Below are positions 14,895-59,402 of a DNA stretch of 64,000 nucleotides, piece after piece. The notes under the pieces were generated by a model. That model saw nothing but the letters and a program-made list of their open reading frames with translations. It was not told where the DNA came from and did not search any database. Position 1 is the first letter of the stretch. Each line of letters opens with the position of its first letter. Origin of the DNA: Sphingomonas sp. 32-66-10. GTDB lineage: Bacteria > Pseudomonadota > Alphaproteobacteria > Sphingomonadales > Sphingomonadaceae. The stretch is taken from contig NCEF01000007.1 of the NCBI GenBank assembly GCA_002280565.1, positions 80,138-144,137 of the forward strand. Direction: 5' to 3'. Made by a program: the position numbers and the translations under genes.

Positions 14895-14924
14895 CTATAA
14901 TAGGAACATTCAGCCGGTCCGGTC
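14895..14924. promoter_or_regulatory. overlapping divergent promoters of fliL (+) and flgF (-)
   Basis: CTATAATAG at 14895-14903 is symmetric and lies in the 11-base palindrome CCTATAATAGG. On the plus strand CTATAAT can serve as the -10 of fliL. On the minus strand CTATTAT (14903-14897) is preceded at 16 bases by GACCG (14924-14920), the two-part flagellar promoter found throughout this island, and would serve flgF. Confidence 0.6.
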
Positions 14925-14955
14925 GCGGATGGGCAAAGAGATTGGGACACAGACC

Positions 14956-15528
14956 ATGAGCGACGACATCATCGTCGAGACGAAGGACGGCGAGGCTCCT
15001 GCTAAGCCCAAGGGCGGCAAGAAGAAGCTGATGATCATCATCGGCGCGGCCGTGCTGGTGCTGGGCGGCGGCGGTGGCGGCGCAGCCTTTTTCCTGATGG
15101 GGTCGGACAAGCCGGCGGCAAAAACTGCCGAGGGTGAACATGGCGAGGGCGAAGCCGAGGCAGAGGCCGAAGAAGGCGCCGACGATGGCGACAAGGAAAA
15201 GGGCGGCAAGGACGGCAAGGCCGGCAGCGCCTATCTCGACGTCCCCCCGCTGGTCGTGAACCTGCGCAGCGCCGACGGTGCCGCGCGGTTCCTGAAGGTC
15301 CATTTCGTGCTGGTGCCCGGCAAGGCAAGCTCGGTCGAGAAGCTGCAGGGTAAGCTGCCGCTGCTGATCGACGCCTATCAGCCGTTCCTGCGCGAACTGC
15401 GCCCCGAAGACCTGAATGGGTCGGGCGCAGTCTATCGCGTCAAGGAAGAGCTGTTGATCCGCGCCACCCAGACGCTGGGGCCGGACGCGGTCAAAGACGT
15501 TCTGATCCAGGATCTGGTGCAGCAATGA
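14956..15528 (+). CDS. fliL: flagellar basal body-associated protein FliL
   Basis: Single-pass inner-membrane protein that surrounds the stator. The 190-residue product has a cytosolic Lys-rich tail, one TM helix (residues ~26-46), an unusually acidic Glu/Ala linker, then the periplasmic FliL domain: YLDVPPLVVNLRSADGAARFLKVHFVLVPG and the C-terminal LLIRATQTLGPDAVKDVLIQDLVQQ. A second ATG at 14929 is in frame, but 14956 follows GGGA at usual distance. The stop overlaps the fliM start. Confidence 0.88.
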   Translation: MSDDIIVETKDGEAPAKPKGGKKKLMIIIGAAVLVLGGGGGGAAFFLMGSDKPAAKTAEGEHGEGEAEAEAEEGADDGDKEKGGKDGKAGSAYLDVPPLVVNLRSADGAARFLKVHFVLVPGKASSVEKLQGKLPLLIDAYQPFLRELRPEDLNGSGAVYRVKEELLIRATQTLGPDAVKDVLIQDLVQQ

Positions 15529-16544
15529 GCGATGATTTCGACGATTTCGAGCTGCCCGAGCCGCCCAAGTTCGATTCCGACGCAGAGTCGCTGCTCGATC
15601 AGGCGGGGATCGACGCGCTGTTCGGGCAGGTCGGGGGTTTCGGCCAGCCGAAGGAAGGCCTGCGTGCGGTCATCGAATCCAACGTCATCAGCCGCGAGCG
15701 GCTGCCGATGCTGGAAGTCGTGTTCGACCGTATGGTCCGCATCTTTGCGACCTCGATGCGCAACCTGACATCCGATGCGATCGATGTCAGCCTTGAGGAA
15801 GTGACCTCGATCCGCTTTGGCGATTATCTCAACCACATCATGCTGCCCGCGATGATCGGCGTGTTTCGCGTCGAGGAATGGGAAAATTATGGCCTGGTCT
15901 CGGTCGATTCCAGCCTGATCTACGCCGTGGTCGATGCGCTGCTCGGCGGACGGCGCGGCGGTGGCGATCAGGTGATGATCGACGGGCGCGGCTTCACCAC
16001 GATCGAAACCGACCTGGTCTCGCGCATGCTGGGCCATGTGCTGAGCGATCTGTCGACGTCGATGGCGCCGATCACCCCGACCACGATCGAGCTGGAGCGC
16101 GTAGAAAGCAGCCCGCGCTTCGTCGCGATCGCCGGCACGACCAACGTCTGCGCGGTTGCCACTTTCCGGGTCAGCATGGACGAGCGCGGGGGGAATTTCA
16201 GCATCCTGCTGCCCTATGCGACGATCGAGCCGGTGCGCCATCTGCTCAACCAGCGGTTCATGGGCGAAAAGCTGGGCCGCGACACGATCTGGGAAGTCCA
16301 TATGGCGTCGGAGGTGCGCAAAGTGGACGTGACGCTCGACGTCGTGCTGGGCGAACGCGACATGGCGCTGGGCGCCGTGCGCGAATTCAAGGTCGGCCAG
16401 ACGATCCCGCTGTTCGCCGACCCCGATCAGCCCCTCGACATGCAATGCGGCGGCGTCACCATCGGCCGCGCCCAGATCGGCCAGCGATCGAGCAAGATTG
16501 CGGTGCGGCTGGTGTCCGACATCGCCAAGGAGAAGCGCGCATGA
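15525..16544 (+). CDS. fliM: flagellar motor switch protein FliM
   Basis: Switch-complex protein linking CheY-P to FliG and FliN. The 339-residue product starts with an acidic segment and has LLDQAGIDALFGQ near residue 25, the CheY-binding/early FliM motif. The middle CheC-like domain (RMVRIFATSMRNLTSDAIDVSLEEVTSIRFGDYLNHI) includes the GGxG-like RRGGGDQ region. The C-terminal SpoA domain (VTLDVVLGERDMALGAVREFKVGQTIPLFADPDQPLDMQCGGV) binds FliN. Complete length. Overlaps fliL and DUF6468 by four bases each. Confidence 0.96.
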   Translation: MSDDFDDFELPEPPKFDSDAESLLDQAGIDALFGQVGGFGQPKEGLRAVIESNVISRERLPMLEVVFDRMVRIFATSMRNLTSDAIDVSLEEVTSIRFGDYLNHIMLPAMIGVFRVEEWENYGLVSVDSSLIYAVVDALLGGRRGGGDQVMIDGRGFTTIETDLVSRMLGHVLSDLSTSMAPITPTTIELERVESSPRFVAIAGTTNVCAVATFRVSMDERGGNFSILLPYATIEPVRHLLNQRFMGEKLGRDTIWEVHMASEVRKVDVTLDVVLGERDMALGAVREFKVGQTIPLFADPDQPLDMQCGGVTIGRAQIGQRSSKIAVRLVSDIAKEKRA

Positions 16545-16879
16545 CCTATTCGCTCGCAGCGAACGTGTTGACGATGCTGTTTTGCACGGTGGTGATCGTT
16601 CAGAGCATGCGCATGATGCGCGCGCTCAACGCACTGAAGCGCAACGATCTGGCGCAGGTCGTGTCGACCCTCGACCAGGCGACGGTGCAGGCACGGCTGG
16701 TGCTGTCCGAGCTCAAGGGCACGCTGACCCAATATGCCCGCGGAACCCATGACGCGGCGCGCGCCAAGGCGGTGGCGGACGAATTGCGGATGATGATCGA
16801 GATCGCGGATTCGACCGCCGAGCGGCTGGTCGAATCCGCCGCTGCTGCACGACGCGCCGACCTGGTGGATCGCTACTGA
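16541..16879 (+). CDS. DUF6468 flagellar-associated protein
   Basis: A 112-residue protein with an N-terminal TM helix ([26 protein letters not shown]) and a helical cytoplasmic or periplasmic coil ([30 protein letters not shown], ending in [19 protein letters not shown]). It matches the DUF6468 proteins found beside fliM and motE in alphaproteobacteria; their role is not known. It is coupled at both ends: ATGA with fliM and TGATG with motE. The start at 16541 is fixed by these overlaps, since the frame continues open upstream through fliM. Confidence 0.75.
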
Positions 16880-17463
16880 TGCGCATCCCCTTTCTGTTGA
16901 TCACCGCTGCCGTCGCGACCGTTGGCGCGGTGGCAAATGGCGTCGATGCGGCGGTGGCCGTCGGCGAATCGGTCGTGCCCAAGACGCGGCTCGGCAGCCA
17001 GATCGAGGGCGAAATCAATGCCGCGCAACGCAAGGAGGCCGAGCGGCGCCGCGCGCTCGACCTGCGCGAACAGGCGCTCAAGGCAGCGCGGCTGCGCCTG
17101 CAGCGCCAGCAGAAGGACGCACAGGCCAAGGCAGCAGCCGAGGGCAAGGCCAGCGCCGATGCGGGTGCCGCTGGCGCGCCAGATGCCGCCGCGGCTGCGG
17201 AGGAAAAACGCTATAGCGATTTGGCCCGCATCTTTCAGTCGATGAAGCCCGCCAAAGCGGCGCCGGTGTTCGAGAAGCTGAGCCCCGACGTGCAGTTCCA
17301 GGTGGCGCAGCGGATGCGCGAGCGCAACGCCGCGCTGATGATGCAGGCCATGTCGCCCGATGCCGCCGCGACCTTGGGCATGGCGCTGGCGCGGGGCGGA
17401 ATGACCCAGCTCAAAGCGGCTGCAGCGACACCCGCCAGGGCCAGCCGCGCCGCGCCTAAATGA
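16879..17463 (+). CDS. motE: MotE family periplasmic protein
   Basis: MotE is an alphaproteobacterial periplasmic chaperone of the motility protein MotC. The 194-residue product has a signal sequence ([21 protein letters not shown]), a long coiled coil (residues ~45-80, Arg/Glu/Ala/Gln rich), an Ala-rich linker and a MgtE-N-like domain: [55 protein letters not shown]. MotC is not in this window. Last gene of the fliL-fliM operon. Confidence 0.8.
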
Positions 17464-17477
17464 GAACGCCACGCATT

Positions 17478-17493
17478 ACTGTAATACTACAGT
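17478..17493. promoter_or_regulatory. inverted repeat ACTGTA-N4-TACAGT
   Basis: A perfect six-base dyad lies 64 bases before the GAF-protein start and 15 bases after the motE stop. It could be a regulator operator. No gene with a matching known site was identified here. Confidence 0.4.
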
Positions 17494-17556
17494 ACAGACA
17501 GGAGCGGTCCGCTAAGATCATCTTGCGATAAGCGGGGTCCTTGAGCGGAGACACCA

Positions 17557-18207: not shown

Positions 18208-18208
18208 A

Positions 18209-18619: not shown

Positions 18620-18647
18620 GGGGTCTCCGTCAAAGGCGTGCAGCTGG

Positions 18648-18678
18648 GACCGCACCCGGCCCCGCCCTTCTATAATAG
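18648..18678. promoter_or_regulatory. flagellar promoter GACCG-N17-CTATAAT, possibly bidirectional
   Basis: GACCG at 18648-18652 and CTATAAT at 18670-18676 drive the 73-residue gene on the plus strand. The symmetric 11-mer TCTATAATAGA also gives CTATTAT on the minus strand (18678-18672), preceded at 17 bases by GTCCC, for the divergent FliL-like gene. Upstream bases are nearly identical to those of the flbT promoter. Confidence 0.65.
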
Positions 18679-18719
18679 ATTGAAAACCCCGTGTTGGGAC
18701 TTGCCCCGTTGGGATTTGA

Positions 18720-18941
18720 ATGAGTCACGATCAAAAGCCAGCGCGGATCCGCATTGTCGGTAGCGGCACCTCCGACCGCCGTTTGGGCGGCGGCTTTGCC
18801 ACCGGCCCTGCGCCACGCCGCGCCGCCACACCGCGCGCGTCCGACAAAACGGGGATCGGGCGCGTGGTGATCGCATTTCTGTTCCTGTCCGCCGCGCTGG
18901 TCGGCGGCGTGGTCCAGGCCTGGTTGCTGCTGCGCGCATGA
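18720..18941 (+). CDS. small single-pass membrane protein
   Basis: Not recognised. A 73-residue protein with a basic, polar N-terminal half (residues 1-43) and one hydrophobic helix at the C-terminus (VVIAFLFLSAALVGGVVQAWLLL). Predicted topology is N-in. It has a flagellar-type promoter and is translationally coupled (ATGA) to the large periplasmic protein that follows, so the two are likely partners in the flagellar system. Confidence 0.65.
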   Translation: MSHDQKPARIRIVGSGTSDRRLGGGFATGPAPRRAATPRASDKTGIGRVVIAFLFLSAALVGGVVQAWLLLRA

Positions 18942-20716: not shown

Positions 20717-20819
20717 CGTCCCGCACAACCTACCCCGTCGTCACGCCTTGCACGCCGCCTCACTATGTTGGGGTCGGCGCGTGGTGCATCGACGCCGCCA
20801 TTCGCCGCGCAAATGAAAA

Positions 20820-20847
20820 GCGGCGGTGCCGGGTGAGGCACCGCCGC
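20820..20847 (-). terminator. intrinsic terminator after mcp
   Basis: GCGGCGGTGCC and GGCACCGCCGC form an 11-base-pair stem with a six-base loop. On the minus strand the stem is followed by TTTTC, so it ends the flgE-flgK-flgL-mcp unit. On the plus strand no T run follows. Confidence 0.8.
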
Positions 20848-27300: not shown

Positions 27301-27329
27301 ATGATAGAAGAGCAGCGACGCTATCGGTC
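27301..27329 (-). promoter_or_regulatory. flgE promoter GACCG-N17-CTATCAT
   Basis: On the minus strand GACCG (27329-27325) and CTATCAT (27307-27301) are 17 bases apart, 40 bases before the TTG start of flgE. The layout is the same as in the other flagellar promoters of this window. Confidence 0.65.
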
Positions 27330-27340
27330 TGCGGGGCCGC

Positions 27341-27351
27341 GCAAAATTTGC
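27341..27351. promoter_or_regulatory. GCAAA-A-TTTGC palindrome between flgE and flbT
   Basis: Perfect five-base arms around one base lie between the divergent flgE and flbT promoters, 12 bases upstream of the flgE GACCG box. Just beyond, CGGCAATTTTTTCC (27356-27369) is repeated exactly upstream of fliF. These are candidate FlbD-type sites. Confidence 0.5.
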
Positions 27352-27377
27352 TGGGCGGCAATTTTTTCCGGGTGCGG

Positions 27378-27406
27378 GACCGCGCCCTACCCCGCCCTTC
27401 TATGAA
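27378..27406 (+). promoter_or_regulatory. flbT promoter GACCG-N17-CTATGAA
   Basis: GACCG at 27378-27382 and CTATGAA at 27400-27406, 30 bases before the flbT ATG. The spacer is C rich and nearly identical to that of the 18648 promoter (shared CCCGCCCTTCTAT). Confidence 0.6.
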
Positions 27407-30577: not shown

Positions 30578-30606
30578 GACCGTCACTCCACTATTTGTCC
30601 TATAAA
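30578..30606 (+). promoter_or_regulatory. promoter GACCG-N17-CTATAAA of the globin-coupled sensor
   Basis: GACCG at 30578-30582 and CTATAAA at 30600-30606, 34 bases before the ATG at 30641. This places the soluble receptor gene in the same regulon as the flagellar structural genes. Confidence 0.6.
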
Positions 30607-30640: not shown

Positions 30641-31987
30641 ATGACCGTAAGCGCCGAACTCGTCGAACGCCTTGCCTTTGCCGGGTTTAGCGATATCCAA
30701 CGCGCCGCGTTGACCAAGTTCGGCCCGACGCTGGAGCGCGAGCTCCCCGGTATTCTCGACAAATTCTACGCCAATCTGCGCAGCTGGCCGCAGCTGGCGG
30801 CGATGTTCAAGGACAGCGAAGCCATGCCGCGCGCCGCAAACGCGCAGGCGGCGCACTGGAAGATGCTGTTCAGCGGTCGGTTCGATGACGCCTATGTCGC
30901 ATCGGTCAGGAAAATCGGCCTGATGCACAGCAAGATCGGGCTGGACCCGCAATGGTATATCGGCGGCTATACCTTCATCCTGCGCCACCTGTTCGAGCTG
31001 GCCGCACAGAGCAGCGGGCCCGCGTTCAACCCGGCAGGCGCGCGCCGCACGGCGGACCTATGCACCGCGATCAACATGGCGGTGATGATCGACATGGACC
31101 TCGCCATCTCGGGCTACATCGTTGAGAACAAGGTTACCTTTGACGACAAGCTGGGCAAGCTCGCCGAGGACTTTCAGACACAGGTCGCCGGTCTCGTCGA
31201 ACAGCTGAGCGTTGCATCGAACCAGCTGGAAGCCAGCGCCCAGTCGATGACCAGCAATACCGGTGAGGCCAACCATCGCGCTCTTGCCGTCGCCGCTGCC
31301 GCTGAACAGGCCAGTGCGGGCGTGCAAACCGTGGCGTCGGCCGCAGAGGAGCTGTCGGCATCGATCCAGATGATCGCAGCGCAGGTCACCGAATCCAGCC
31401 ACACCACCCAGCGCGCCGTAACCGACGCCCAGCAGACCGACCAGACCGTTCGCGCGCTCGACGAGGCGGCGGAGCGGATCGGCACCGTCGTCGGCCTGAT
31501 CGGCCAGATTGCAGGCAAGACCAACATGCTGGCGCTCAACGCGTCGATCGAGGCGGCACGCGCTGGCGAGGCCGGCAAGGCATTCGAGGTGGTCGCCGCC
31601 GAGGTCAAGGCGCTCGCCAGCCAGACTGAGCGCATGACCGAAGAGGTTGAGGCGCAGGTTCGCGCGATCCAGCAAGCGACCCGGCAGGCGGTCACGGGCC
31701 TGAGCAGCATCACCGAGACGATCGGCCGGGTCGCCGAGATCAGCACCAGCATCGCCAGCGCGGTCAACCAGCAGAATAGCGCAACCGCCGACATCAGCCG
31801 CAACATCCAGCAGACCGCCCAGGCGGCGCATGAGGTGTCGGCCAACATCGTCGGTGTCAGCCAGGCGTCGGAGGCCACGGGCACGGCGGCAAGCCAGGTT
31901 TTCTCCTCGGCCAGCGCGCTGTCGGGGCAGGCCAGCACCCTGTCCGACCAGGTCCATCGCTTCGTCAGCCAGGTGCGCGCGGCGTGA
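30641..31987 (+). CDS. globin-coupled chemotaxis sensor (HemAT-like)
   Basis: Soluble oxygen sensor of 448 residues. The N-terminal protoglobin domain (residues ~10-175) contains [18 protein letters not shown], where His96 fits the proximal heme ligand. A linker leads to a methyl-accepting signalling domain with the hairpin [39 protein letters not shown]. There is no membrane segment. It probably mediates aerotaxis through the CheA/CheW encoded at 39857-42495. Heme binding is inferred from the motif. Confidence 0.9.
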
Positions 31988-32027
31988 GGCACAACTACTG
32001 TAGAAGCACCATATTGTGGAATTACGT

Positions 32028-32048
32028 ATAGGAGTAGTTTATTCCTAT
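32028..32048. promoter_or_regulatory. inverted repeat ATAGGA-N9-TCCTAT
   Basis: Perfect six-base arms lie 75 bases upstream of the sigma-like gene. The same half-sites form a longer dyad in front of the XRE regulator at 33710-33733, so it may be an operator of that regulator. Confidence 0.5.
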
Positions 32049-32122
32049 TTACTGCAATCGGCGATCATTCCCCTGCAGCCGGAGCAGATATCGCGACGGC
32101 AAAGACGATCGAGGGGACGATC

Positions 32123-33157
32123 ATGTCGAACACCACCGCCGCGCTCGAGGTTGCCGTCGCAACCGTCATCGAGAACATGGCCAAGGACGGCCAGCCGCAG
32201 ACCAACCGCCAGCGCGTTTACGGTGAGCGTGCCTTCGCTCAGGTGCTGAAGCTGCTCGCGCCACGCATCCGTCACTTCATCCGCCAATATGGTCTCGCCG
32301 CCCATTGGGACGATGCCGAGCAGTGCTGCGCGATCGGCGTCCACCGCGCGATCCAGGCCTATGACTCCGAGCGCGCCCAGTTCACGACCTTCGTCAACTG
32401 GCAGCTGCGCGGCGAGCTGCAGAGCCTGCGTTTCCGCGTCATGACCGATCAGCGCCCGTCGGCGAAGAAGGTCGAGGCGACCACCGTCTCGCTCCATGCG
32501 ATGAGCATCGGCGTCGAAGGCGAAGCCAACACGCTGGAGAGCATGATCGAGGACGAATACGCCCTTGAGCGCACCGAAGCGGCGGCCGGCGAGCATTTCG
32601 CGGTCAAAACCCGTGAAGCACTGCTCGACGCCTATGTCGATCATCTGCGCAGCGTTGCGATGGAGCAGCTCAAGCGCCGCGCCCGCAGCACCCGCTCGGT
32701 ACAGGTCCAGGACCCGCGCCTCCCCCGCTACCGCGCCGGTGCTGCAATCATCGATCCGGCCGAGATCGCCGAGCTGGAAGAAAAGCTGGAGGCACAGCGC
32801 CGCACGGTTGCGCGCCGCCTGTCGGACGACGCTGCCGATATCGAGCTGGAAGCCGATCCCCAGGAGCGCGAACGCCAGCGCCAGGTCGCCAAGCGCGCGG
32901 CAAAGGCGATTGCCGACATCGCGGCAAATGACCCCCGCTTTGGCGGCATGTTCGAACGCCCCAAGACCATGCCGCGTCGCCGCGCGAGCGACAAGGTCGA
33001 CACGCCCTCGATCGGCGTGCTGCCCGATCACAATGCGCCGCATAACCGGCTGAGCCGCGTGATCGCGGTGGTACCGACGGAAATGGAAGAAACCCCGGCC
33101 GTTGAGCAGGACGAGCGCGAAGCCGCGCTGGTTCGCGGCGCCACCCGTTCGCGCTGA
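32123..33157 (+). CDS. sigma-70 region 2-like protein lacking a visible region 4
   Basis: A 344-residue protein. Residues ~45-115 match sigma-70 region 2: RHFIRQYGLAAHWDDAEQCCAIGVHRAIQAYDSERAQFTTFVNWQLRGELQSLRFRVM, with the core-binding D-x-x-Q-x-G segment and an aromatic -10-melting helix. No region 4 helix-turn-helix could be found; the C-terminal half is a charged coiled coil (AEIAELEEKLEAQRRTVARRL...ERERQRQVAKRAAKAIADI) and a disordered tail. It may be a divergent sigma factor or a core-binding regulator. AGGGGA precedes the start. Its place between receptor and regulator genes suggests a role in flagellar transcription. Confidence 0.6.
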   Translation: MSNTTAALEVAVATVIENMAKDGQPQTNRQRVYGERAFAQVLKLLAPRIRHFIRQYGLAAHWDDAEQCCAIGVHRAIQAYDSERAQFTTFVNWQLRGELQSLRFRVMTDQRPSAKKVEATTVSLHAMSIGVEGEANTLESMIEDEYALERTEAAAGEHFAVKTREALLDAYVDHLRSVAMEQLKRRARSTRSVQVQDPRLPRYRAGAAIIDPAEIAELEEKLEAQRRTVARRLSDDAADIELEADPQERERQRQVAKRAAKAIADIAANDPRFGGMFERPKTMPRRRASDKVDTPSIGVLPDHNAPHNRLSRVIAVVPTEMEETPAVEQDEREAALVRGATRSR

Positions 33158-33185
33158 GCATAACCGCGTGATCCGCGAGAGCATC

Positions 33186-33665
33186 ATGACCGCTCAGAGC
33201 AGCGCCGACGGCCTTATGCCGTTCATCGATCCGGGCCTGGACGAACTGTCCAGGGAATTCTGTCACAGCGCCCGCTATTGGTTCGACCAGTCGGGACATC
33301 TGATCGCCGTTTGGGGCGTGGGTACCAATGGGCATTTCGGTGTCAGCTGGGACCGCTGGCTCAAGCGCGAGGAAATCGCGCCGCTGCGCGCTGCCCGCAG
33401 CTGTGAGCGGCTTGCCGCACAATTGCTCGAGCGGGTTCGCCAGCGCTGGCCGCTGGGCATGGCGCCGCACAGCATCGGACTGATCACCGATGGCAGCGGC
33501 GTTGCCGTTGCGCCCGAAGACCCCTGGCCGCTCGCACCGGGCTGGCTCGACCGCCGCATTGCGCGTCCCGGCAGCCTCGTTGCCCTGCGCCGCTTCGATC
33601 CGGCCGGCAATTGGGCGCTGATCTCCCAGCCGCCACGGTCGATCGCTGCGCGCCGGGCGGGCTGA
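33186..33665 (+). CDS. conserved hypothetical protein
   Basis: Not recognised. A 159-residue soluble protein with an alpha/beta pattern, rich in Trp and Arg (ARYWFDQSGHLIAVWGVGTNGHFGVSWDRWLKREEIAPLR). No signal peptide or membrane helix. It lies 28 bases after the sigma-like gene and is probably cotranscribed with it. The start at 33186 is preceded by GAGAGC; an in-frame GTG at 33168 is possible. Confidence 0.55.
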   Translation: MTAQSSADGLMPFIDPGLDELSREFCHSARYWFDQSGHLIAVWGVGTNGHFGVSWDRWLKREEIAPLRAARSCERLAAQLLERVRQRWPLGMAPHSIGLITDGSGVAVAPEDPWPLAPGWLDRRIARPGSLVALRRFDPAGNWALISQPPRSIAARRAG

Positions 33666-33709
33666 CCGCTGCCCCGCTAAAAGCTTGGAACTATTGGGGA
33701 TGCCTGCTA

Positions 33710-33733
33710 TCCTATACCAAAATGGGTATAGGA
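33710..33733. promoter_or_regulatory. nine-base dyad TCCTATACC-N6-GGTATAGGA, probable XRE operator
   Basis: A perfect inverted repeat lies just before the XRE gene. Its right arm contains the AGGAG ribosome binding site of that gene, so a bound protein would block both transcription and ribosome access. The half-site recurs at 32028-32048. Confidence 0.65.
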
Positions 33734-33742
33734 GTTCGCGGC

Positions 33743-34840
33743 ATGGATGCGCCCGTAGTATTGAGAACTGCGGTTGCCCCCGGGGCGGTGCCGGTCGATC
33801 CGTATCGGGCGTTCATCTTTCCCAATCACATCCGCGAATTGCGTCGGCGCGCAGGATATCAAAAGCTGATCGGCCTGGCGCACCGTTTGCCGGGACTGAC
33901 CTATATCCGCCTGTCCAAGATCGAACGCGGCGAGGTCACGGCGCGGGCGCATGAACTGATCGAGATCGCGAGCGTGCTCGGCGTCACGCCGGACGCCCTG
34001 CTGGTCGATGTCGACGCGCGGGGCTTTTCGATCGAGGATTGGGCAGCGCCCTTTGTCAGCGCGCCGATCCTGGACCTGGAGCGGGAGCAGTTCGCCGTGC
34101 TGCTCGCCGCAGCCGTACGGCAGCTGCGCTCGACCGATCGGGCGCTGACCATCCAGGCGATCGGCGAGCGGCACGGGATCGCGCCGGTCAATCTGTCGCG
34201 CATCGAAAATGCGCAGCGCAGCTTTGAGGAGTGGAACGCCCCTACCCGGCTGGCGATCGCCGCATTGTTCGGCACGGCGAGCGAGGCGGCGTTGCGCGCG
34301 CGTATCGACCAGCTGCACCGCTCAGGCGACCTCGACCCGTGGATGGCATCGGTCAGTGATCCGGAAGCGCGCCTGTTCCGGACCCGCGAACGGATCGCGG
34401 CATTGCGCGCCGAGCTGCGCGGCGAGGCGGCAGGGTCGGCGGCGAGTCCCGCGACCATCGCGACGGTCGGCGATCCCTCTGCGACGATTCCCGTCCGCGG
34501 CATCGCCGGGCCGGATGGACTGGTCCTCGACCAGGAAACGGGCGAGCGCATCCCGCCTCCACCCGGATGCGGGGTCCAGGTGATCGCGCTGCGCCTGTGT
34601 CGTGCCACGCTCGGCGCCGGACTGCCCGGTCAGGCGATCCTGTTCATTGACCCCGACCGCTATCCGGTGGCCGGCGGCCTGGCCGCGGTGCGCGAACCGG
34701 GCGGATTTCGCATCCTTGCGGTCGCGGCTGGCATGGATGGCACGCTGGTGGGACACAGCCAGTCACCGCCACGCGCGTTGCCGCTCAATGAGTTGACCCA
34801 GGACGAAGTCCATGCGGTCGTCGCCGCGCGGTTTGTCTAA
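33743..34840 (+). CDS. XRE-family transcriptional regulator with two HTH-like segments
   Basis: A 365-residue protein. Residues ~28-90 form a Cro/C1-type HTH (HIRELRRRAGYQKLIGLAHRLPGLTYIRLSKIERGEVTARAHELIEIASVLGVTPDALLVD). A second HTH-like segment follows (ALTIQAIGERHGIAPVNLSRIENAQRSFEEWNAPTRLAIAALFG). The C-terminal domain (residues ~240-365) is a beta-rich region of unknown function, perhaps ligand binding. The start at 33743 has AGGAG eight bases upstream; an ATG at 33722 lies inside the operator. It is likely autoregulated. Confidence 0.75.
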   Translation: MDAPVVLRTAVAPGAVPVDPYRAFIFPNHIRELRRRAGYQKLIGLAHRLPGLTYIRLSKIERGEVTARAHELIEIASVLGVTPDALLVDVDARGFSIEDWAAPFVSAPILDLEREQFAVLLAAAVRQLRSTDRALTIQAIGERHGIAPVNLSRIENAQRSFEEWNAPTRLAIAALFGTASEAALRARIDQLHRSGDLDPWMASVSDPEARLFRTRERIAALRAELRGEAAGSAASPATIATVGDPSATIPVRGIAGPDGLVLDQETGERIPPPPGCGVQVIALRLCRATLGAGLPGQAILFIDPDRYPVAGGLAAVREPGGFRILAVAAGMDGTLVGHSQSPPRALPLNELTQDEVHAVVAARFV

Positions 34841-34911
34841 CTGGTTGTAACTTCATCCATTATGGGTAAACTCGGGGCAAGAAACCGGGTTGAGGCTGTA
34901 ATGGGGGGAGC

Positions 34912-37287
34912 GTGGAGCCGAGCCGTATCTGGTTTCCAATCGGGTCGATTCGCGGACGATTAGCCGCGAGCTGTTTCGCGCTGGCCGTGCTGGTTTGCCT
35001 CATCGGTCTCCTCGGCTGGATCATCGACTCCCCGCTATTGCACAGCACCATCCCCGGGTATCCGTCGGTCTGGCCCCCTTCCGTTGCGACCAAATTGCTG
35101 CTTGCCGTGACGCTGATCGCGGTCAGCGTATCGGATGCCGTATCGCGCAGGCATGTCGCATTTGTGGGGATCGGCGTTGCCGTCGTCGCGCTGATCCTGC
35201 TTGCCGTCTCGATATCCGCCGACGGTGGCGGCAGCCCGATCTCATGCCTGCTCATCCTGCTGCTCGGCATTGCGACGGTGATCCTGTTCCGCACCGATCA
35301 CGATGGGGCGCCGATCGCGGCGTTGGTCGCGGCGCTCGTTATCAGCTTTGCGTTGCTGACACTGGCCGGCCAGATTCTCGCCACCGAGGTGCGCGGTGGC
35401 ACGGTTCAGCTCTGGCATATCCCCGTCCTGACCAATGTTGCCGAGCTGCTGCTCGGCCTTGGCCTGCTGCTCACCGCGATTGACCAGACGCTGGCGGAAT
35501 ATCGGGCCAGCGGCGAGGAACGCTGGCCATTGCCATTGCGCGCGGTGCCGGCGCTGATGGTGGCACCGGCGCTCGTGCTGGCCGCCGACCTGATCCTGTT
35601 CGGCGATCCGGAATTTCCCGAGACGACTGAAATCTGGGGCATGCTGGCAAATACGCTGATCGTGGGGTCGGTGCTGCTATGGGCCATTGCGCGACTGACG
35701 CGCCAGCGCTCGACCCTGCGCATTTATGCCGCGACGCTCGACGTCCAGCCGATCGTGATGACCGACCCGGCGGACCGGATCATTCACTGGTCGCGGGGTT
35801 GCCAGCATTTGTTCGGATTCAGCGCAGAAGAGGCGTTGGGGAAGGTCAAGACCGAGCTGCTGCAGACCCGCCCCGTCGAGGGGGTCGCCGAGGAGGAGCT
35901 GGCGGTAGACGCTCGCGGCGCATGGCGCCAGCACCGATGGGTCGAAACCGCACGCGATGGCGGAGCAGTCCAGGTGCTGGAGCAAGCCCAGGATGTCGAG
36001 GACCGTGAGCATGGCCATGTCACCGTTCTTTCCATCACCGATCTCGGTCCACTGCTGCGCGCACAGAGCGCGATTGCAGAGAGCGATCAGCGCCTGTTGC
36101 TGGCGGCCGAAGCGCACAAGATCGGCATTTTCGAATGGGATGTGACTTCGGGCGGTCTGACCTGGTTCGCCAATACCGAGCCCTTGCTGGGCGTACCGGT
36201 GGGAACGCTCAACGACTTTGCGTCATGGCAGGAGTTCGTGTTTCCCGAAGATCGCGAGCTGCTGGCCAAGCGGCTGGAGGCGGCGGTGTGGAGCAGGGCC
36301 GATCAGATCAGCCTGTCCTATCGCCTGCGCTTGCCCGACGGATCGATCCGCGCAATCGAGGGGTCGGCACGCTGCTTCTACGATGAATCCGGAGCGCTGA
36401 TCAGGGCGGTCGGCGTCAATATCGACGTAACGGACCGGGTTCAGCAGACCGCGCAGCTCGCCGCGCGTGAAGCACAGATGCGCTCGATTCTTGAAACTGT
36501 GCCCAGCGCGATGGTCGTGATCGACATCCACGGACGGATCCTGAGCTTCAGCCCGGCCGCCGAGCGGATGTTTGGCCACAGCGCGAACGATGTGATCGGC
36601 TCCAACGTCTCGCTGCTGATGAACGACGAGTTCGGGCTGCGGCATGACGGCTTTCTCGCCAATTATCTCCGCACGGGTCAGCGGCGGATTATCGGACGGC
36701 CCCGCATCCTGACCGCACGGCATGCCGACGGCAGCGAATTTCCGATCGAGCTGCACGTGGGCGAGGCGGTGTATCAGGACAATCGCGTCTTTACCGGCTT
36801 CATCACCGATTTGTCGGAGCGGCTGCGCAATGAAGAGCAGTTGGCGCAATTGTCCAGCGAACTGACCCAGATCGGCCGGATCAACGCCATGGGCGAACTT
36901 GCCGCTGCACTGGCGCATGAGATCAACCAGCCGCTTTCGGCGATCGCCAACCATATCGCCACGGCCGAGATCATCCTGGAGGATGAACAGATTTCCGATC
37001 CGTTGCACGAACGGCTGTTCGACCAGTTGCGCGCAACGCGGGCACAGGCGCTGCGTGCGGGCGAGATCATTCGGCGCCTGCGCGATTTCGTCGCGCGGCG
37101 CGACGACCGTATGTTTTTGCCGTTCAATTCGACCAAGGGCGAGGGCAGTATGGGGATCGGGCTGTTGATCTGCCGTCGGATCGTCGAGGCGCATGGCGGC
37201 AAAATTTCAGCTGGAAATGAAGAACATGGCGGTGCCACGTTCCGCTTTACCGTTCCAGGTGTCGAGCGGACATTGGGGGAGGACTGA
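34912..37287 (+). pseudogene. FixL-like PAS histidine kinase with internal deletion in the ATPase domain
   Basis: A 791-residue membrane kinase: about eight TM helices (residues ~10-260), three PAS domains (~266-380, 389-505, 516-640), and a HisKA domain with phospho-acceptor His669 in LAHEINQPL. The third PAS resembles the FixL heme PAS, with His578 in RHDGF as likely ligand. After RDFVARRDD (near 733) the sequence jumps to RMFLPFNSTKGEGSMGIGLLICRRIVEAHGG, the F/G2 boxes of HATPase_c. The N and G1 boxes that bind ATP are missing although the frame is intact. It should not autophosphorylate. GTG start at 34912 is uncertain. Confidence 0.7.
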
Positions 37288-37748
37288 TGCAGAGTGTTTA
37301 CATCGTCGACGACGACCAGGCGGTACGTCAGTCGCTCCATGGGTTGTTGTCCGAGCGTCCCAACCTGGTGATCCGCGTGTTCGCGTCGGGAGACGCGTTT
37401 CTCGACAATATCGAGGCGAGCGACGGTGGCGTGCTGTTGCTCGATTTCCAGATGCCGGGACGCAACGGGATTGAGGTGATGCGCGCGATTCAGGAACGCA
37501 GCGGGAAGTTCCTGACGATCATGCTGACCGGTCAGGGCGACATTTCACTCGCAGTGCAGGCGATGAAGGCGGGGGCGACCGATTTTCTCGAAAAGCCCTA
37601 TGACCCCCACCATCTGCTCAACCTGCTCGACCTGTCGCCCCGCACGGTGGAAATCTACCGCGCGAACATGATGGAAAAGCTGGACGTCAGCAGCCTGTCC
37701 GAAGCGCTGCGGCTCGCTTATGCTGCAGAGGTTGCGGTGCCGGTATAG
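37287..37748 (+). pseudogene. FixJ-like response regulator with internal deletion
   Basis: A 153-residue protein against about 200 for FixJ. The receiver is complete (acidic pair D8-D10, phospho-acceptor D53, T81, K103). After HHLLNLLD (residue ~115) it passes directly into LSPRTVEIYRANMMEKLDVSSLSEALRLAYAAE, the recognition helix and C-terminal helix of a LuxR-type HTH. The linker and first HTH helices, normally starting LTPRE, are absent, and the frame is kept. DNA binding is doubtful. It overlaps the kinase stop by one base, so the pair is an operon. Confidence 0.7.
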
Positions 37749-38162: not shown

Positions 38163-38191
38163 TATCTAGAATGGTCCTTGCCGGTCCGGTC
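38163..38191 (-). promoter_or_regulatory. candidate flaF promoter GACCG-N17-CTAGATA
   Basis: On the minus strand GACCG (38191-38187) is 17 bases before CTAGATA, a weaker match to CTATAAT. The 12-mer GACCGGACCGGC here is also present at the flgF promoter. Confidence 0.45.
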
Positions 38192-38238: not shown

Positions 38239-38267
38239 GTCCGCCGCCCCCGCGCCCCTCCTATAAT
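38239..38267 (+). promoter_or_regulatory. motA/che operon promoter GTCCG-N17-CTATAAT
   Basis: GTCCG (one mismatch to GACCG) at 38239-38243 and CTATAAT at 38261-38267, 39 bases before the motA start. It would drive the long plus-strand motA-che-motB-fliL2-PilZ cluster. Confidence 0.6.
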
Positions 38268-49088: not shown

Positions 49089-49117
49089 TTTATAGGGGGC
49101 AGAATTTGCCCCCGGTC
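49089..49117 (-). promoter_or_regulatory. fliN promoter GACCG-N17-CTATAAA with a dyad in the spacer
   Basis: On the minus strand GACCG (49117-49113) and CTATAAA (49095-49089) are 17 bases apart, and the dyad at 49095-49113 fills the spacer. Protein binding to the dyad would block this promoter. Confidence 0.6.
49095..49113. promoter_or_regulatory. GGGGGCA-N5-TGCCCCC palindrome between fliN and flgC
   Basis: Perfect seven-base arms around GAATT. The core GGCAGAATTTGCC is similar to the fliL and fliF palindromes. It sits inside the fliN promoter and just upstream of the flgC promoter, a geometry suited to a dual repressor/activator such as FlbD. Confidence 0.6.
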
Positions 49118-49118
49118 C

Positions 49119-49146
49119 GACCGACCCGGAAAAACTTGCCTATAAG
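49119..49146 (+). promoter_or_regulatory. flgC promoter GACCG-N16-CTATAAG
   Basis: GACCG at 49119-49123 and CTATAAG at 49140-49146, with a spacer of 16, 46 bases before the flgC start. It would drive flgC-fliE-fliQ-fliR-flhB. Confidence 0.55.
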
Positions 49147-49192
49147 AAAGCTGTCGGGGGCAATTCCTGCCCGCCGCGCCGGATTTGGGATC

Positions 49193-50983: not shown

Positions 50984-50987
50984 CGCA

Positions 50988-52135: not shown

Positions 52136-52561
52136 TCAGACCGTGCGGTCGTGCTTGGCCAGTTCGACCCGCACGCGCAATTCGATGTCGCGCGCGATGT
52201 CGGCAAGCTCGGGATCGTCCGGCATTTCGAACAATGCGGCCCATTGCGACAGCGCGTCGAGCGCTGCCGCGTCGGGCAATCCCTTGACCTGGGCGGCGTG
52301 CAGCTGTTCGAGGATCTCGAGCCCGCGCGCCGCCGGGCGTGCCTCACGCCGGCGCTTGTCCTTGGGCGTTTCCAGCGCGGTCGCGGCGGCGAGCAGCACA
52401 TGCACCGTGGTCGCGGCCTGCAGTGTCGGGGCGGCCTGCTGCCCCTGTCGCGGCGCTTCGGGCATCTCCATTTTCGGGACAGCCAGGCGCAGGGCGGCGT
52501 CGGATTTGGACAGTGCGTTGAGCACCATCTGCACCGGCATCGGAACGCCCTCGATCCGCAC
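52136..52561 (-). CDS. fliX: flagellar assembly regulator FliX
   Basis: FliX is an alphaproteobacterial trans-acting factor that controls FlbD activity in response to assembly. The 141-residue product ends with the family signature: RPAARGLEILEQLHAAQVKGLPDAAALDALSQWAALFEMPDDPELADIARDIELRVRVELAK. A GTG at 52561 (MRIEGVPMPVQ) is the likely start; the ATG at 52537 is an alternative. It diverges from flgI, the gene order known from Caulobacter. Confidence 0.82.
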   Translation of the reverse strand: MRIEGVPMPVQMVLNALSKSDAALRLAVPKMEMPEAPRQGQQAAPTLQAATTVHVLLAAATALETPKDKRRREARPAARGLEILEQLHAAQVKGLPDAAALDALSQWAALFEMPDDPELADIARDIELRVRVELAKHDRTV

Positions 52562-52580
52562 TGCTTCTCTTCTCCGCCAA

Positions 52581-52609
52581 GACCGGAACGGCCTTCTTCT
52601 TTCTATAAG
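52581..52609 (+). promoter_or_regulatory. flgI promoter GACCG-N17-CTATAAG
   Basis: GACCG at 52581-52585 and CTATAAG at 52603-52609, 24 to 36 bases before the possible flgI starts, in the fliX-flgI divergent gap. Confidence 0.6.
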
Positions 52610-52633
52610 AAGATTAACGGCGTTCCGGAGACG

Positions 52634-53664
52634 ATGGACAGGTTTATGCACATTTTGAGGTTCCTGCTGCTGGCTCTGGTCCTGGCGCTGCCCGGCACCG
52701 CCGCGGCAAACAGCGCGCATCGCATCAAGGACATCGTCGACATCGAGAATGTCCGACCCAACCAGTTGGTCGGATATGGTCTCGTCGTCGGCCTTGCCGG
52801 TACCGGTGATCGCACGCGCAACACGCCCTTCACCGAGGAATCGATGCAGGCGATGCTGGAGCGCATGGGCGTCAATGTGCGCGGGTCGCAGCTCAAGACG
52901 ATGAATGTCGCCGCCGTCTCGATCACCGCGACCATGCCGCCCTTCGCCCGTTCCGGATCGCGCATCGATGTGACGGTGTCGGCGATCGGCGATGCCACCA
53001 GCCTGCAGGGCGGGACGCTGATCGCGTCCTCGCTGCGCGCTCTGGATGGCGAAATTTATGCCGTGGCGCAGGGCCAGGTGATCGGGCGCGTCGGCAGCAC
53101 GCTCACCCGCGGCAAACGAGCCTGAAGCTGGCGCTGAAGAACCCCGATTTCACCACCGCCAATATGATCGCGGGCGTCATCAATTCGACCTTTGCCGGAA
53201 CCGCCGAGGTGCTCGACCCGGCTACGGTCCAACTCAAGCCCGGACCCGGCTTCCCGGGATCGGTCGTCGATCTGGTCGCCCGGATCGAAAACCTGCCCGT
53301 CACGGTCGATCAGCCCGCCAAGGTGATCGTCAACGAAGCATCGGGCACGGTGGTGATGGGCGCAAATGTCCGGATCAGCCCAGTCGCGATCGCGCAGGGG
53401 GGGCTGACCATCAGCGTCGCGGAATCGCCGCAGGTGTCGCAGCCTGCGCCGCTGTCGCAGGGCCAGACCCAGGTCGTGCCCCGGACCCAGGTGACGGTCG
53501 ATGACGGCACCGGCCGCTCGCTTGGCACGCTCGGCGGCGAAACCTCGCTCGCCTCGCTGGTCGCCGGCCTCAACGCGCTGGGCGTCAGCCCGCGCGACCT
53601 GATCACCATTCTTCAGGCCGTGAAGAGCGCCGGCGCGCTCCAGGCCGATATCGAGGTGCAGTGA
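52634..53664 (+). pseudogene. flgI: flagellar P-ring protein FlgI, disrupted by an internal deletion with frameshift
   Basis: The first frame (52634-53125, 163 residues) has the signal peptide and HRIKDIVDIENVRPNQLVGYGLVVGLAGTGDRTRNTPFTEESMQAMLERMGVNV through DGEIYAVAQGQVI, then ends in unrelated GRVGSTLTRGKRA and TGA. The second frame resumes near 53119 with SLKLALKNPDFTTANMIAGVINSTF and continues normally to 53664. The part of FlgI in between, normally about 35-40 residues carrying the GRIPxGAxVE region, is missing and the frame is shifted. The two pieces add up to about 335 residues against roughly 370. As written no intact P-ring protein is made. A sequence error is possible. Confidence 0.8.
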
Positions 53665-56193: not shown

Positions 56194-56209
56194 CGCAGCG
56201 TGCGCCAAC

Positions 56210-56248
56210 AAAAAAGGGGGCGTCCCGGCCGGGACGCCCCCTTTTTTT
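56210..56248. terminator. strong bidirectional terminator
   Basis: A perfect 13-base-pair stem (GGGGGCGTCCCGG with CCGGGACGCCCCC) is flanked by six A on the left and seven T on the right. It ends both the mcp (+) and flgB (-) transcripts, which converge here. Confidence 0.93.
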
Positions 56249-56267
56249 GCATGCGCTCTGCGTCGCG

Positions 56268-56684: not shown

Positions 56685-56688
56685 GATG

Positions 56689-59355
56689 TCAGAACCCTAT
56701 GGATGTCGAAGGGCCGGATGTGAGGCGGGTGAGCGCAGCTTGATAATTGGCAATCTGGGCTTGTTCGCGCGCGGTGCTTCCGCCCCCGCGCGCGCCTTCG
56801 ACCAGTGCCTGCTTGCCGTCATCCCAGTAAAGCGAGCGATAACCGGTCTGGGCAATCGACAGCGCGGATTTCAGTTTGGCGAGCGTTGCCGTGGCCGCCT
56901 TCTGGTCGACGATCGAAAGCGCCGGATTGAGGCCCAGTCCGAAACTGCCGCCCGGACGGACCCGGGGCGCATTCTTGTCGATCGGGTCCATGCCGGAGAC
57001 GCGCGCGGCCGGCAGACCCAGCTTTTCCAGCGCATCACGGCCGTTCGGGCCGGCGATGAACTCGATGTCGATCCCCGCCTTGGGCGCCACGCGCAGCATT
57101 GCGCCATCGTCTTTCTTGGGCGTGGTCACCAGCGCTTTCGATCCGGTGATCTTGCGTACCTTGTCGGCCAGGCTGGCGAGCGTCTCTTCCTTTGCGATCG
57201 TGATCGTGCGGACCACGCCGCCGGCGACGCGCATCTGGAAGCTGTCGCCTTCGCGCAAGCTCGACCCGGTGGTCAGGCGTAGCGAGCCGTCGGGCGTCAC
57301 AACGCCGCGACCAAGGCCGAGCGCATCGACCTTGCTCGACCCGCCGTCCGACGCGGCGACGCGCACCGGCTCGGTGCGCAGGGTTGGCTGGCCAAATTGC
57401 GCGACCTTCTCGACACCGCCGCTGGCCGGATCGATCCGCGCGACGAAGCCATCGGTGGGACCGCTGCGTGTCCCGCCAAAGTCGCCCGTCGTGCGACCGC
57501 CGACATAGAGCTTGCCGTTACTGAAAGCGAGGCTGTCGACCTGCTCATTCCCGCCGGTGCCGAGATAGGTGACCGCCATGCCGGTACCGTCCGCCGCGAG
57601 CCGCGCCACGAACCCGTCACGGCCGCCGGTGATGCCGTTGACCTGGGTTCCGGGCAGCGCCGAGAGCGTGGTTCCGCCGATGGCGATCGATCCGTCGGGC
57701 GCCATGGCGATCGCGCGTGCATCGGCAGTGCCGAGGTCGATCGTATCGAGCACCGTCCCGGGGCTGGCCGGATCGAGGAAGCGCAGTTTCGACGTCGCAC
57801 CCTCCTTGGTCAGCGCGGCGAGGCGACCATCGGCGGTCATCGCCATGGCGGTGATACTTTCATCGCCCGCACCAGGCAGCTTGACCCGCTGTGTCACCGC
57901 TCCCGTGCCGCTGAGCCGGGCGACGAATGCGTCACCCCCGCCCTGCCCCGCGCGCCCGCCGACCAGAATTGCGCCATCATCGGCAATGGCGATGCTGGTT
58001 GCGCGATCCTCTCCGGCTGAGCGAATGCGGCTGGCGAACATCTCGTCGCCATTGTTGGCATAGCGGGCGACGAGCATGTCGGCGTCCGCGCTGGTCCCGT
58101 TGAAACTGCCCGACACCGTCCCGGCAACGACGATGTCGCCATTCTCGGCAACGGTGACGGCGGCACCCGACGCGCTGTCGGCGGCACCCAGCGCGCGTTG
58201 CCACACGACATTGCCGACGCTGTCCATCTTGGTGAGATAGAGGTCCTGCGTGCCCGCGGCGCGGAGCTCATCGAGATCGCCCGACGCCGTTCCGACGACA
58301 TAGGCAAAGCCATCGGCGTCGGTCGCGACCGCATCGGTGGTGGTCGCCACCGCCTTGGTCGTCAGCCGGTCCTTGGCCTCGATCGTGGTGAGCGTCTTGT
58401 TGGTCATCGCCGCTTCGGGATCGTCGATACGCAGCACCCGCGCGGCAGTCGGCGTTTCAAGGCCGGTGCGCCCGGTCGCGACGATCAGCGCGTCGGGGGC
58501 GTCGACCTGATCGATCGACACGCTCTCCAGGCCCTGGCGGTTGATGCCCATCGTCCAGCCATCTTCTTCGGTCTTTTTGGGCTCGAAATTCACTTTCCAC
58601 TTGGGCGCGGGCGTCCCGTCGCTGTTGAGCACGATGTTGCCCCCTGCATCGCGCATCGGGATATTGGCGATCGCCTGATTGACCAGGTTCGCCACGCTGT
58701 CGAGCGTCGGTGGCTCGGGCAACGAGCCAAGGTCGATCACGACCGTATCGACGCTGCTGCCGCGCTCCAGCGTGACCCGGAACCGTTCGGTGCCCGACAT
58801 TTGCGACAGCACTTCGTCGCGCTTGGCGACAACGCCTTTACCCGACACGCTGACCGTCAAGCCGCCCGTGCCCGGCGCGACGACCGTGCTCTCGGCCCGG
58901 CGCACCGGCTGCCCGAAGGACAGCTCCAGCTTGTCGGACGGCGCGGTGCCCATATAGGTCTGAAGGTCGGCGAGACCCTTGGCGAAGGTCGCGGCGAGCT
59001 GCCCGCGTTCGGTGGTCGACAGGCCGGGCTTCGCCGCCGTCGTGGCAAGGACATTGAGCCGGTCGAGCGCCTTCCACGTGGTGAACGCCGACTGCACGTC
59101 GGTCGGCAGCGCGCGCACGCCGGTCAGCGGCTTGTCGATGATGGTGGCGAGGCGGCGGATCGTGGCGATCTGGGTCGAGATCGATCCGGTGGATCCGGCC
59201 TCACGCCAGGGGGGTGTGGTTTCGGGCAGGGTGAACTGAGCCTTGGCCTCGCGCACGGCCTTGCTTTCCACCGTCAGGCCCGCGCCCGAGGTCGAATACC
59301 AGCTCGTATCGGCACCCAGCAGGGTCAGTCCCGCCAATCCCGAATTGATGTTCAT
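56689..59355 (-). CDS. large flagellar-locus protein with beta-propeller repeats flanked by flagellin-like segments
   Basis: An 888-residue protein with no Sec signal. Residues ~340-645 contain repeated units such as DGFAYVVGTASGDL, GDIVVAGTVSGSF, DGAILVGGRAGQGGGDAFVARL and GKLYVGGRTTGDFGG, like SBBP/beta-propeller repeats. Residues ~186-231 (FRVTLERGSSVDTVVIDL...SVANLVNQAI) and ~700-790 (GDSFQMRVAGGVVRTITIAKEETLASLADKVRKITGSKALVTTP, ending LEKLGLPAARVSG) resemble the IN motif of flagellin/hook-associated D2 domains. It may be exported by the flagellar system. Start at 59355 has AGGA upstream. It is cotranscribed with flgB. Confidence 0.65.
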   Translation of the reverse strand: MNINSGLAGLTLLGADTSWYSTSGAGLTVESKAVREAKAQFTLPETTPPWREAGSTGSISTQIATIRRLATIIDKPLTGVRALPTDVQSAFTTWKALDRLNVLATTAAKPGLSTTERGQLAATFAKGLADLQTYMGTAPSDKLELSFGQPVRRAESTVVAPGTGGLTVSVSGKGVVAKRDEVLSQMSGTERFRVTLERGSSVDTVVIDLGSLPEPPTLDSVANLVNQAIANIPMRDAGGNIVLNSDGTPAPKWKVNFEPKKTEEDGWTMGINRQGLESVSIDQVDAPDALIVATGRTGLETPTAARVLRIDDPEAAMTNKTLTTIEAKDRLTTKAVATTTDAVATDADGFAYVVGTASGDLDELRAAGTQDLYLTKMDSVGNVVWQRALGAADSASGAAVTVAENGDIVVAGTVSGSFNGTSADADMLVARYANNGDEMFASRIRSAGEDRATSIAIADDGAILVGGRAGQGGGDAFVARLSGTGAVTQRVKLPGAGDESITAMAMTADGRLAALTKEGATSKLRFLDPASPGTVLDTIDLGTADARAIAMAPDGSIAIGGTTLSALPGTQVNGITGGRDGFVARLAADGTGMAVTYLGTGGNEQVDSLAFSNGKLYVGGRTTGDFGGTRSGPTDGFVARIDPASGGVEKVAQFGQPTLRTEPVRVAASDGGSSKVDALGLGRGVVTPDGSLRLTTGSSLREGDSFQMRVAGGVVRTITIAKEETLASLADKVRKITGSKALVTTPKKDDGAMLRVAPKAGIDIEFIAGPNGRDALEKLGLPAARVSGMDPIDKNAPRVRPGGSFGLGLNPALSIVDQKAATATLAKLKSALSIAQTGYRSLYWDDGKQALVEGARGGGSTAREQAQIANYQAALTRLTSGPSTSIGF

Positions 59356-59371
59356 GATCCTGTCCTCACGC

Positions 59372-59402
59372 GACCGGGATCCCCCTTTCCTGTCCATAAT
59401 AG
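59372..59402. promoter_or_regulatory. divergent promoters of fliG (+) and the 888-residue gene (-)
   Basis: Plus strand: GACCG at 59372-59376, 17 bases, CCATAAT at 59394-59400. Minus strand: CTATTAT (59402-59396), preceded at 17 bases by GTCGG (59424-59420). The two -10 boxes overlap, as at fliL/flgF and at 18670. Confidence 0.55.

Follow-up and report, generated by a model that had tools for sequence, protein, structure and literature searches.

A conserved promoter pair and predicted FlbD-binding dyads in a Sphingomonas flagellar cluster with a degenerate FlbD

What drives transcription of a flagellar regulon whose promoters fit the consensus of neither sigma28 nor sigma54? The question is raised by a window of 64,000 nucleotides from Sphingomonas sp. 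32-66-10 (C10:80138-144137 of genome assembly G000, which comprises 2.68 Mb and is 83% complete), in which GACCG and a CTAT-type -10 box recur at a nearly fixed distance upstream of flagellar genes; the window is the whole of this stretch, and coordinates refer to it unless a contig or locus is named. G-numbers denote the genomes compared, and L-numbers denote the loci fetched. The FlgE protein of the window is Sphingomonas-like, with 97, 97, and 91% identity to relatives, the 91% being that of Sphingomonas sp. R647. We suggest, as a somewhat probable reading of comparative sequence data, that the link between the regulator FlbD and sigma54 has been broken and that FlbD now acts at sigma70-type promoters of an alpha-type flagellar regulon. 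A preliminary description of this DNA had reported the promoter pair but had missed palindromes at set distances from the promoters, a second flagellar set on another contig that carries sigma54 sites, and a degenerate FlbD.

A promoter pair of constant spacing upstream of flagellar genes

All eleven pairs in the preliminary description are present at the spacings given there. On the forward strand, they precede the gene for a 73-residue protein (GACCG-N17-CTATAAT, 18648..18676), flbT (GACCG-N17-CTATGAA, 27378..27406), a globin-coupled sensor gene (GACCG-N17-CTATAAA, 30578..30606; weakly kept, in 2 of 4 genomes including G000), motA (GTCCG-N17-CTATAAT, 38239..38267), flgC (GACCG-N16-CTATAAG, 49119..49146), flgI (GACCG-N17-CTATAAG, 52581..52609), and fliG (GACCG-N17-CCATAAT, 59372..59400); on the reverse strand, they precede flgF (GACCG-N16-CTATTAT, 14897..14924; kept in G033, G046, G104, and G076), flgE (GACCG-N17-CTATCAT, 27301..27329), flaF (GACCG-N17-CTAGATA, 38163..38191; CTAGAAT or CTAAAAT in G046, G104, and G029), and fliN (GACCG-N17-CTATAAA, 49089..49117). 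The sites at the 73-residue gene, flbT, fliN, flgC, and flgI are backed by both the spacing scan and relatives, that of flgE by the scan and a set of flgE promoters, and those of motA and fliG by relatives. The pair therefore exists, but the proposed consensus GACCG-N-CTATNAT was too strict: it is literal in only 3 of the eleven, with departures in the -10 box at flbT, the globin-coupled sensor gene, fliN, flgC, flgI, flaF, and fliG and in the -35 element at motA. Literal matches number 3 in the window (14924-, 18648+, and 27329-; 0.05 expected) and 6 in the genome, 3 of them outside the window. A fair consensus is the looser G[A/T]CCG-N16/17-CTATNA(T).

The pair is not a product of chance, because GACCG-Nd-CTAT occurs in the window 5 times at d=16 and 6 times at d=17, compared with 0 to 3 times (mean, 0.85) at each of 20 other spacings (Poisson P of about 2e-6). 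All six N17 matches lie ahead of flagellar or sensor genes (the 73-residue gene, flbT, the globin-coupled sensor gene, flgI, fliN, and flgE), as do two of the five N16 matches (flgF and flgC), the other three (322, 37577, and 58324) being inside coding sequence. Genome-wide, GACCG-N16/17-CTATNA was found 25 times and the reversed pattern 12 times; 9 of the 25 are in the window, which makes up 2.4% of the assembly. Such a genome scan had been called for by the preliminary description. Of the 16 matches outside the window, 14 are in coding-like open reading frames and 2 (L158 and L160) are ambiguous, and the coding status of these matches is a matter of judgment because the open reading frame criterion also flags the window's own promoter sites. 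Of the 8 matches to the N17 form alone, 6 are in the window; one of the other two follows shortly after flhA on this contig, and one is on contig C2. Elsewhere in this genome, 58 kb (L051, L052, and L054) that include the second flagellar set contained no GACCG-CTAT pair at 16 or 17 bp. A background of 420 kb held 12 such pairs over all sequence, with no excess over other spacings, and 1 in the roughly 49 kb called noncoding, under an automatic gene masking that in the window counted as noncoding only 4 of the 6 N17 sites and neither of the 2 N16 sites.

The pair is conserved. In the cluster regions of 10 relatives, GACCG-CTAT occurs 9, 19, and 7 times at d=16, 17, and 18, respectively, versus 1.5 elsewhere. 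The comparison of orthologous upstream regions that had been proposed was run on the eleven genes in six relatives and G000: the loose pair was found in 55 of 65 regions, with exact GACCG in 38, whereas among 23 regions of four genes off the list the same loose pattern was found once. Spacers drift among the six relatives, and the -35 and -10 elements mostly stay. Conservation is weakest at flbT (4/7), the globin-coupled sensor gene (2/4), and flaF (3/6, the misses being CTAGATA); the accepted pairs of fliG in G029 and motA in G104 look doubtful, and the G036 rows of flgF and fliN, which are paralog matches, were left out of the counts. The spacing profile and the orthologous regions thus support GACCG as a predicted flagellum-specific -35 element of constant spacing, as had been proposed.

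A wider survey covered 37 flgE promoters, reduced from 41 by removal of two duplicates (L056 and L059) and two loci in which the start was not found (L077 and L081). GACCG-N17 is present in 12; GTCCG, GCCCG, ACCCG, or AACCG is present in 6; and TTTGG, which contains a sigma70-like TTG, stands at the place of GACCG in 8. GACCG thus becomes sparser with distance from G000; from this survey, the -10 box is the constant element, whereas the -35 element varies by clade, GACCG being one of its forms. The TTTGG promoters (L020, L066, L069, L071, L075, L078, L080, and L082) have CTACAAT as the -10 box in six cases, CTAGAAT in one, and CTATAAA in one.

FlbD has lost its sigma54-contact threonine and Walker B aspartate in Sphingomonas

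The flbD gene starts at 63537 on the forward strand (63537..64000 within the window), encodes 428 amino acids, and continues past the window (L053:3537-4823), between a fliN-like gene and flhA. Its product has the FlbD architecture of receiver, AAA+ domain, and Fis-type helix-turn-helix at the fliN-flhA locus; the helix-turn-helix is intact, and the receiver is below the Pfam cutoff (22 versus 30 bits). The loop that should read GAFTGA reads GAFEGA, and Walker B reads LFLRD. In a genus sample, FlbD (>300 bits) was found in 24 of 101 genomes, all among the 28 with a window-type flgE, and all 23 readable Sphingomonas FlbDs have lost the GAFTGA threonine and carry arginine for the Walker B aspartate, with GAFEGA, GAFPGA, TAFPEA, and other loop variants. 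The helix-turn-helix GNRTSASxILGISVRTMRNKL is unchanged in the same 23 proteins.

Outside the genus, the picture is different. A class-wide search with the FlbD C terminus matched 93 of 190 genomes, and proteins were read from 28 of the 92 other class-level and 29 of the 69 other order-level matching genomes (L106 and L134, which have no full domains, were left out of the motif counts). Both motifs are intact in 27 of 28 readable non-Sphingomonas FlbDs of the class sample, the exception, G146, being degenerate like those of Sphingomonas, and in all 29 read from the order sample; the recognition helix is near-identical in the FlbDs read, those of Sphingomonas included. Since the GAFTGA threonine and the Walker B aspartate are lost, Sphingomonas FlbD should not work as a sigma54 activator, to judge from its residues. 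No paper on FlbD losing GAFTGA was found in the literature collection searched.

Four genomes carry the window-type flgE and no full FlbD. In two of them, fliN and flhA flank a gene for a short protein that has a helix-turn-helix of this kind but lacks the AAA+ domain (G024, L295 7372-7812; G093, L298 at about 18000-17630 on the reverse strand). In the short protein of G024, Pfam finds only helix-turn-helix domains, and a receiver-like start is seen by eye; in G093 (L082), a perfect dyad is retained at -46 for flgE. The locus was not found in the remaining two genomes; the regions of G052 and G038 gave no fliF or flbD match. It is plausible, although we hold this order of events only tentatively, that FlbD was crippled first, through loss of its sigma54-contact and ATPase residues, and was later cut to a short helix-turn-helix protein in some lineages, its sites being kept at set distances from sigma70-type promoters with the new flagellum-specific -35 element GACCG.

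GGCAA-N3-TTGCC dyads at set distances from the promoters

Palindromes like GGCAAATTTTGCC occur upstream of flgE in many genomes. GGCAA-N3-TTGCC with no more than one mismatch is present at 11 sites in the window (20 random sequences: mean, 2.8; largest, 6), compared with 16 in the 420-kb background, and 7 of the 11 fall in four flagellar control regions within the approximately 11% of the window that is noncoding (P, 4e-5), a figure taken from a hand-made gene map in which some starts were moved. Exact dyads occur at only two places in the genome, so the case for the dyad rests on the one-mismatch form. In 20 flbD loci, exact GGCAA dyads number 10 versus 0 to 5 for six control palindromes, and one-mismatch dyads number 49 versus 14 to 47, a count that is weak alone.

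With transcription starts predicted 6 bp below the -10 box, for which the final match to a gene-specific pattern was used, the perfect dyad GGCAAATGTTGCC between flgF and fliL (14871..14883) is at about -31 for fliL and +13 for flgF; the fliL -10 box, CTATAAT (14895..14901, forward), lacks GACCG, and the dyad covers its -35 region. Between flgE and flbT, one dyad with two mismatches (27340..27352) is at about -52 for flgE and -67 for flbT, and another with one mismatch (27357..27369) is at about -69 and -50, respectively. Three one-mismatch dyads lie between fliN and flgC, at about -22 for fliN and -49 for flgC (49098..49110), -52 and -19 (49128..49140), and -83 and +12 (49159..49171). Two more precede fliF, 17 bp apart, at about -50 (61453..61465) and -33 (61470..61482); the fliF -10 box, CTATAAT (61496..61502, forward), likewise lacks GACCG. 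These distances hold across genomes: -50 to -52 and -33 to -35 for fliF in 7 of 7, -50 to -52 for fliN in 6 of 6, -48 to -51 for flbT in the 6 scored (1 further genome had no -10 match), -67 to -69 for flgE in 7 of 7, and -31 for fliL in 5 of 5, with the flgF dyad at +13. A dyad is present at 29 of the 37 flgE promoters of the wider survey, and the 30 dyads are distributed as 5 at -46/-49, 17 at -64/-70, 5 at -77/-79, and 3 elsewhere.

The dyad is probably a FlbD site, as predicted from its presence (at most one mismatch) upstream of fliF in 14 of the 19 intact-FlbD alphaproteobacteria examined and from the near-identical recognition helix; it is also present there in G146. GTTAAC adjoins the fliF dyad in several intact-FlbD genomes.

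Sigma factors and a second flagellar set

The genome has rpoN, a fliA, and several activators. A second flagellar set (C61:76000-112000; L051 and L052) contains fliA, two flagellin-type genes, and an enhancer-binding protein with intact GAFTGA and LLLDE; it has four sigma54 sites of 11 to 12/12, against 1 in total in the window-type clusters of six relatives. In the window, no TGGCACG-N4-TTGCW site of at least 11/12 was found, and the 3 sites at 10/12 are in coding sequence. Sigma54 promoters were ruled out for the window set on this basis and sigma28 promoters by the letters, since the sites read GACCG/CTATNA; the earlier statement that the pattern fits neither consensus therefore stands. A scan for the sigma28 (FliA) pattern TAAA / GCCGATAA found none in the window, which says little because the fliA-bearing set also gave none.

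The earlier remark that the -35 box is not TTGACA also agrees with our data: a TTG-type -35 element at 17 bp was not found, and G[A/T]CCG or the dyad stands there instead. A TATAAT-like -10 box was found, as CTATNA(T) here and as CTACAAT in many orthologs. Because the TTG-type element is lacking, we use "sigma70-type" for promoters that would work like those of sigma70, not for proven members of that class.

DISCUSSION

We infer from sequence both the assignment to sigma70 and activation by FlbD. In the proposed mechanism, the -10 element would be a normal CTATNA(T) box, and the -35 region would be occupied by the flagellum-specific G[A/T]CCG or by the GGCAA-N3-TTGCC dyad, which FlbD most likely binds. 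Bound about 50 or 68 bp upstream, FlbD would help sigma70 RNA polymerase at flgE, flbT, fliN, and fliF; over the -35 region or near +12 (fliL, flgC, and flgF), repression is more likely. CtrA may act above FlbD (PMC8921679 and PMC6472365).

Several observations weigh against this reading. Pfam still scores the AAA+ domain of the window FlbD as Sigma54_activat at 120 bits, well above the cutoff, and the loss is thus one of key residues and not of fold. No dyad was found at 8 of the 37 flgE promoters, none of the -35 variants sought was found at 11 of them, and the positions of the dyads are only loosely periodic. TTGAC-Nd-TA..[AT] occurs 3 times at d=18 in the approximately 49 kb of background noncoding DNA, too few to give this genome's sigma70 -35 element. 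Sigma54 sites near flbD in intact-FlbD genomes number 8 versus 3 expected (358 kb); the absence of such sites here is weak evidence because those genomes also show few. The region upstream of flgE, where a sigma54 site of 11/12 was found in 2 of 18 intact-FlbD genomes, is a poor test in them, because flgE is often not first in its operon. Furthermore, Caulobacter FlbD represses fliF through ftr4 (PMC3930126), and the fliF dyads may be repressive for that reason. No dyad was found at six of the eleven GACCG promoters (the 73-residue gene, the globin-coupled sensor gene, motA, flaF, flgI, and fliG).

The last two points favor a rival account, in our view rather unlikely, in which FlbD does nothing but repress, as it did ancestrally at fliF, and activation comes from whatever binds GACCG; dyads over the -35 or -10 region at fliF, fliL, fliN, and flgC are consistent with it, whereas those upstream of the -35 element at a steady distance of about -50 (flbT and fliN) or -68 (flgE) occupy places typical of an activator. 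Candidate GACCG binders are encoded within the flagellar cluster at 30641-37748 (the globin-coupled sensor, a double-helix-turn-helix protein, a PAS histidine kinase, and a FixJ-like regulator). A second rival, in which CtrA activates these promoters directly, as it does in Caulobacter and in the fla2 system of Rhodobacter sphaeroides, through a divergent form of its site containing GACCG, is distinctly improbable. Regulation of motility by CtrA is cited for S. melonis, and a Sphingomonas WG mutant showed a joint rise of ctrA and flbD (PMC8921679 and PMC6472365); GTTAAC lies beside the fliF dyad in several intact-FlbD relatives, and one-mismatch TTAA-N7-TTAA sites occur near the expected -35 region of the 56689-59397 gene in G000 and G033 and at the globin-coupled sensor gene in G033. 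GACCG, however, is unlike TTAA, and no TTAA-N7-TTAA (at most one mismatch) was found in the upstream regions of 12 of 15 genes in the aligned genomes, the last 150 bases being free of it at eleven (flgF, fliL, the 73-residue gene, flgE, flbT, flaF, motA, fliN, flgC, flgI, and fliF). The site at the 56689-59397 gene, TTAACCACGAATAAA (about 59428-59442), lies between that gene and fliG; a half-site is kept in G076 and none in G046 or G104, and scattered TTAAC half-sites occur elsewhere.

That GACCG/CTATNAT is read by an alternative sigma factor devoted to it, be it FliA or a different one, is less probable still. The -35 element is unlike TTGACA, the pair occurs almost exclusively in one regulon, and a fliA is present; yet that fliA is in the other flagellar set, the -10 box is sigma70-like, the corresponding promoter of other species carries TTTGG, in most cases paired with CTACAAT, and the other three FliA-model matches in this 83%-complete assembly look like RpoD/RpoH or pieces thereof (names inferred). 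The new sigma factor implied by the preliminary description is thus not supported, given a -10 box like that of sigma70 and TTTGG in 8 of 37 flgE orthologs. Chance or composition in GC-rich DNA, for which one could cite the 3 literal matches and the many coding-sequence sites among the 25 looser ones, is hardly credible in view of the sharp spacing peak, the genome-wide clustering, and the conservation, as had been maintained from the start.

The nearest parallel to FlbD and its predicted sites as we describe them is the FlbD/ftr system of Caulobacter crescentus, which shares the receiver/AAA+/Fis-type helix-turn-helix regulator and sites at fliF and hook-type genes, the sites being likened by location. 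The gene order, with flbD encoded behind fliN in the fliF region, is presumably the same in Caulobacter. Caulobacter FlbD has GAFTGA and activates sigma54 promoters (PMC10274813 and PMC3930126), whereas in Sphingomonas FlbD GAFTGA and Walker B are lost and good sigma54 sites are absent; a published Sphingomonas study calls FlbD a sigma54 activator (PMC8921679). The sigma54-contact loop has also been lost from the NtrC of Rhodobacter capsulatus and Caulobacter, which acts at sigma70 promoters (PMC10274813). Those proteins act in nitrogen regulation, and in Caulobacter the use of ammonium depends on AAA+ residues of NtrC, whereas the flagellar FlbD also lacks the Walker B aspartate and, in two genomes, the AAA+ domain. 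R. sphaeroides likewise combines a sigma54/FliA-type set (fla1) and an alpha-type set (fla2) in one genome (PMC6180460), but its fla2 promoters use CtrA sites (TTAA) in place of GACCG and FlbD-like dyads. Two flagella in Sphingomonas are already in print (PMC13015449). Start site data from Novosphingobium, Caulobacter, Zymomonas, and R. sphaeroides give alphaproteobacterial sigma70 promoters a -10 box like that found here, a most frequent spacing of 17 bp, and a variable base at -7; their -35 element has TTG, in contrast to G[A/T]CCG here (PMC8407463).

If our reading of FlbD is correct, the cluster would show plainly, in nature, a flagellar hierarchy that has abandoned sigma54 in a single genus (and in the outside genome G146). 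Full-length but crippled and shortened forms of FlbD would both survive there, and the cells would still have another flagellar set equipped with sigma54 sites. It would also bear on how an AAA+ activator can turn into an ordinary promoter-proximal regulator.

Gene content of the window

Pfam confirmed FlbT, a FliI-type ATPase, the globin-coupled sensor, MotA/B, Che proteins, FliP, FliO, FliN, FliR, FlhB, and FlgI, as well as FlgE/F-type rod and hook proteins, FliM, FlaF, FliG, FliF, FlbD, and a second FliN-like gene. The names of fliL and, apart from flgF and fliM, of most genes in the first 18 kb come from position and sequence only. FlgI is split over two frames, 52151-53125 (Pfam positions 1-121) and 53164-53664 (180-343), through a frameshift or an assembly error. 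The 73-residue gene and the 592-amino-acid gene after it matched no Pfam family, and the leader of the former (18690-18720) contains the near direct repeat GTTGGGACTTGCCCC / GTTGGGATTTG.

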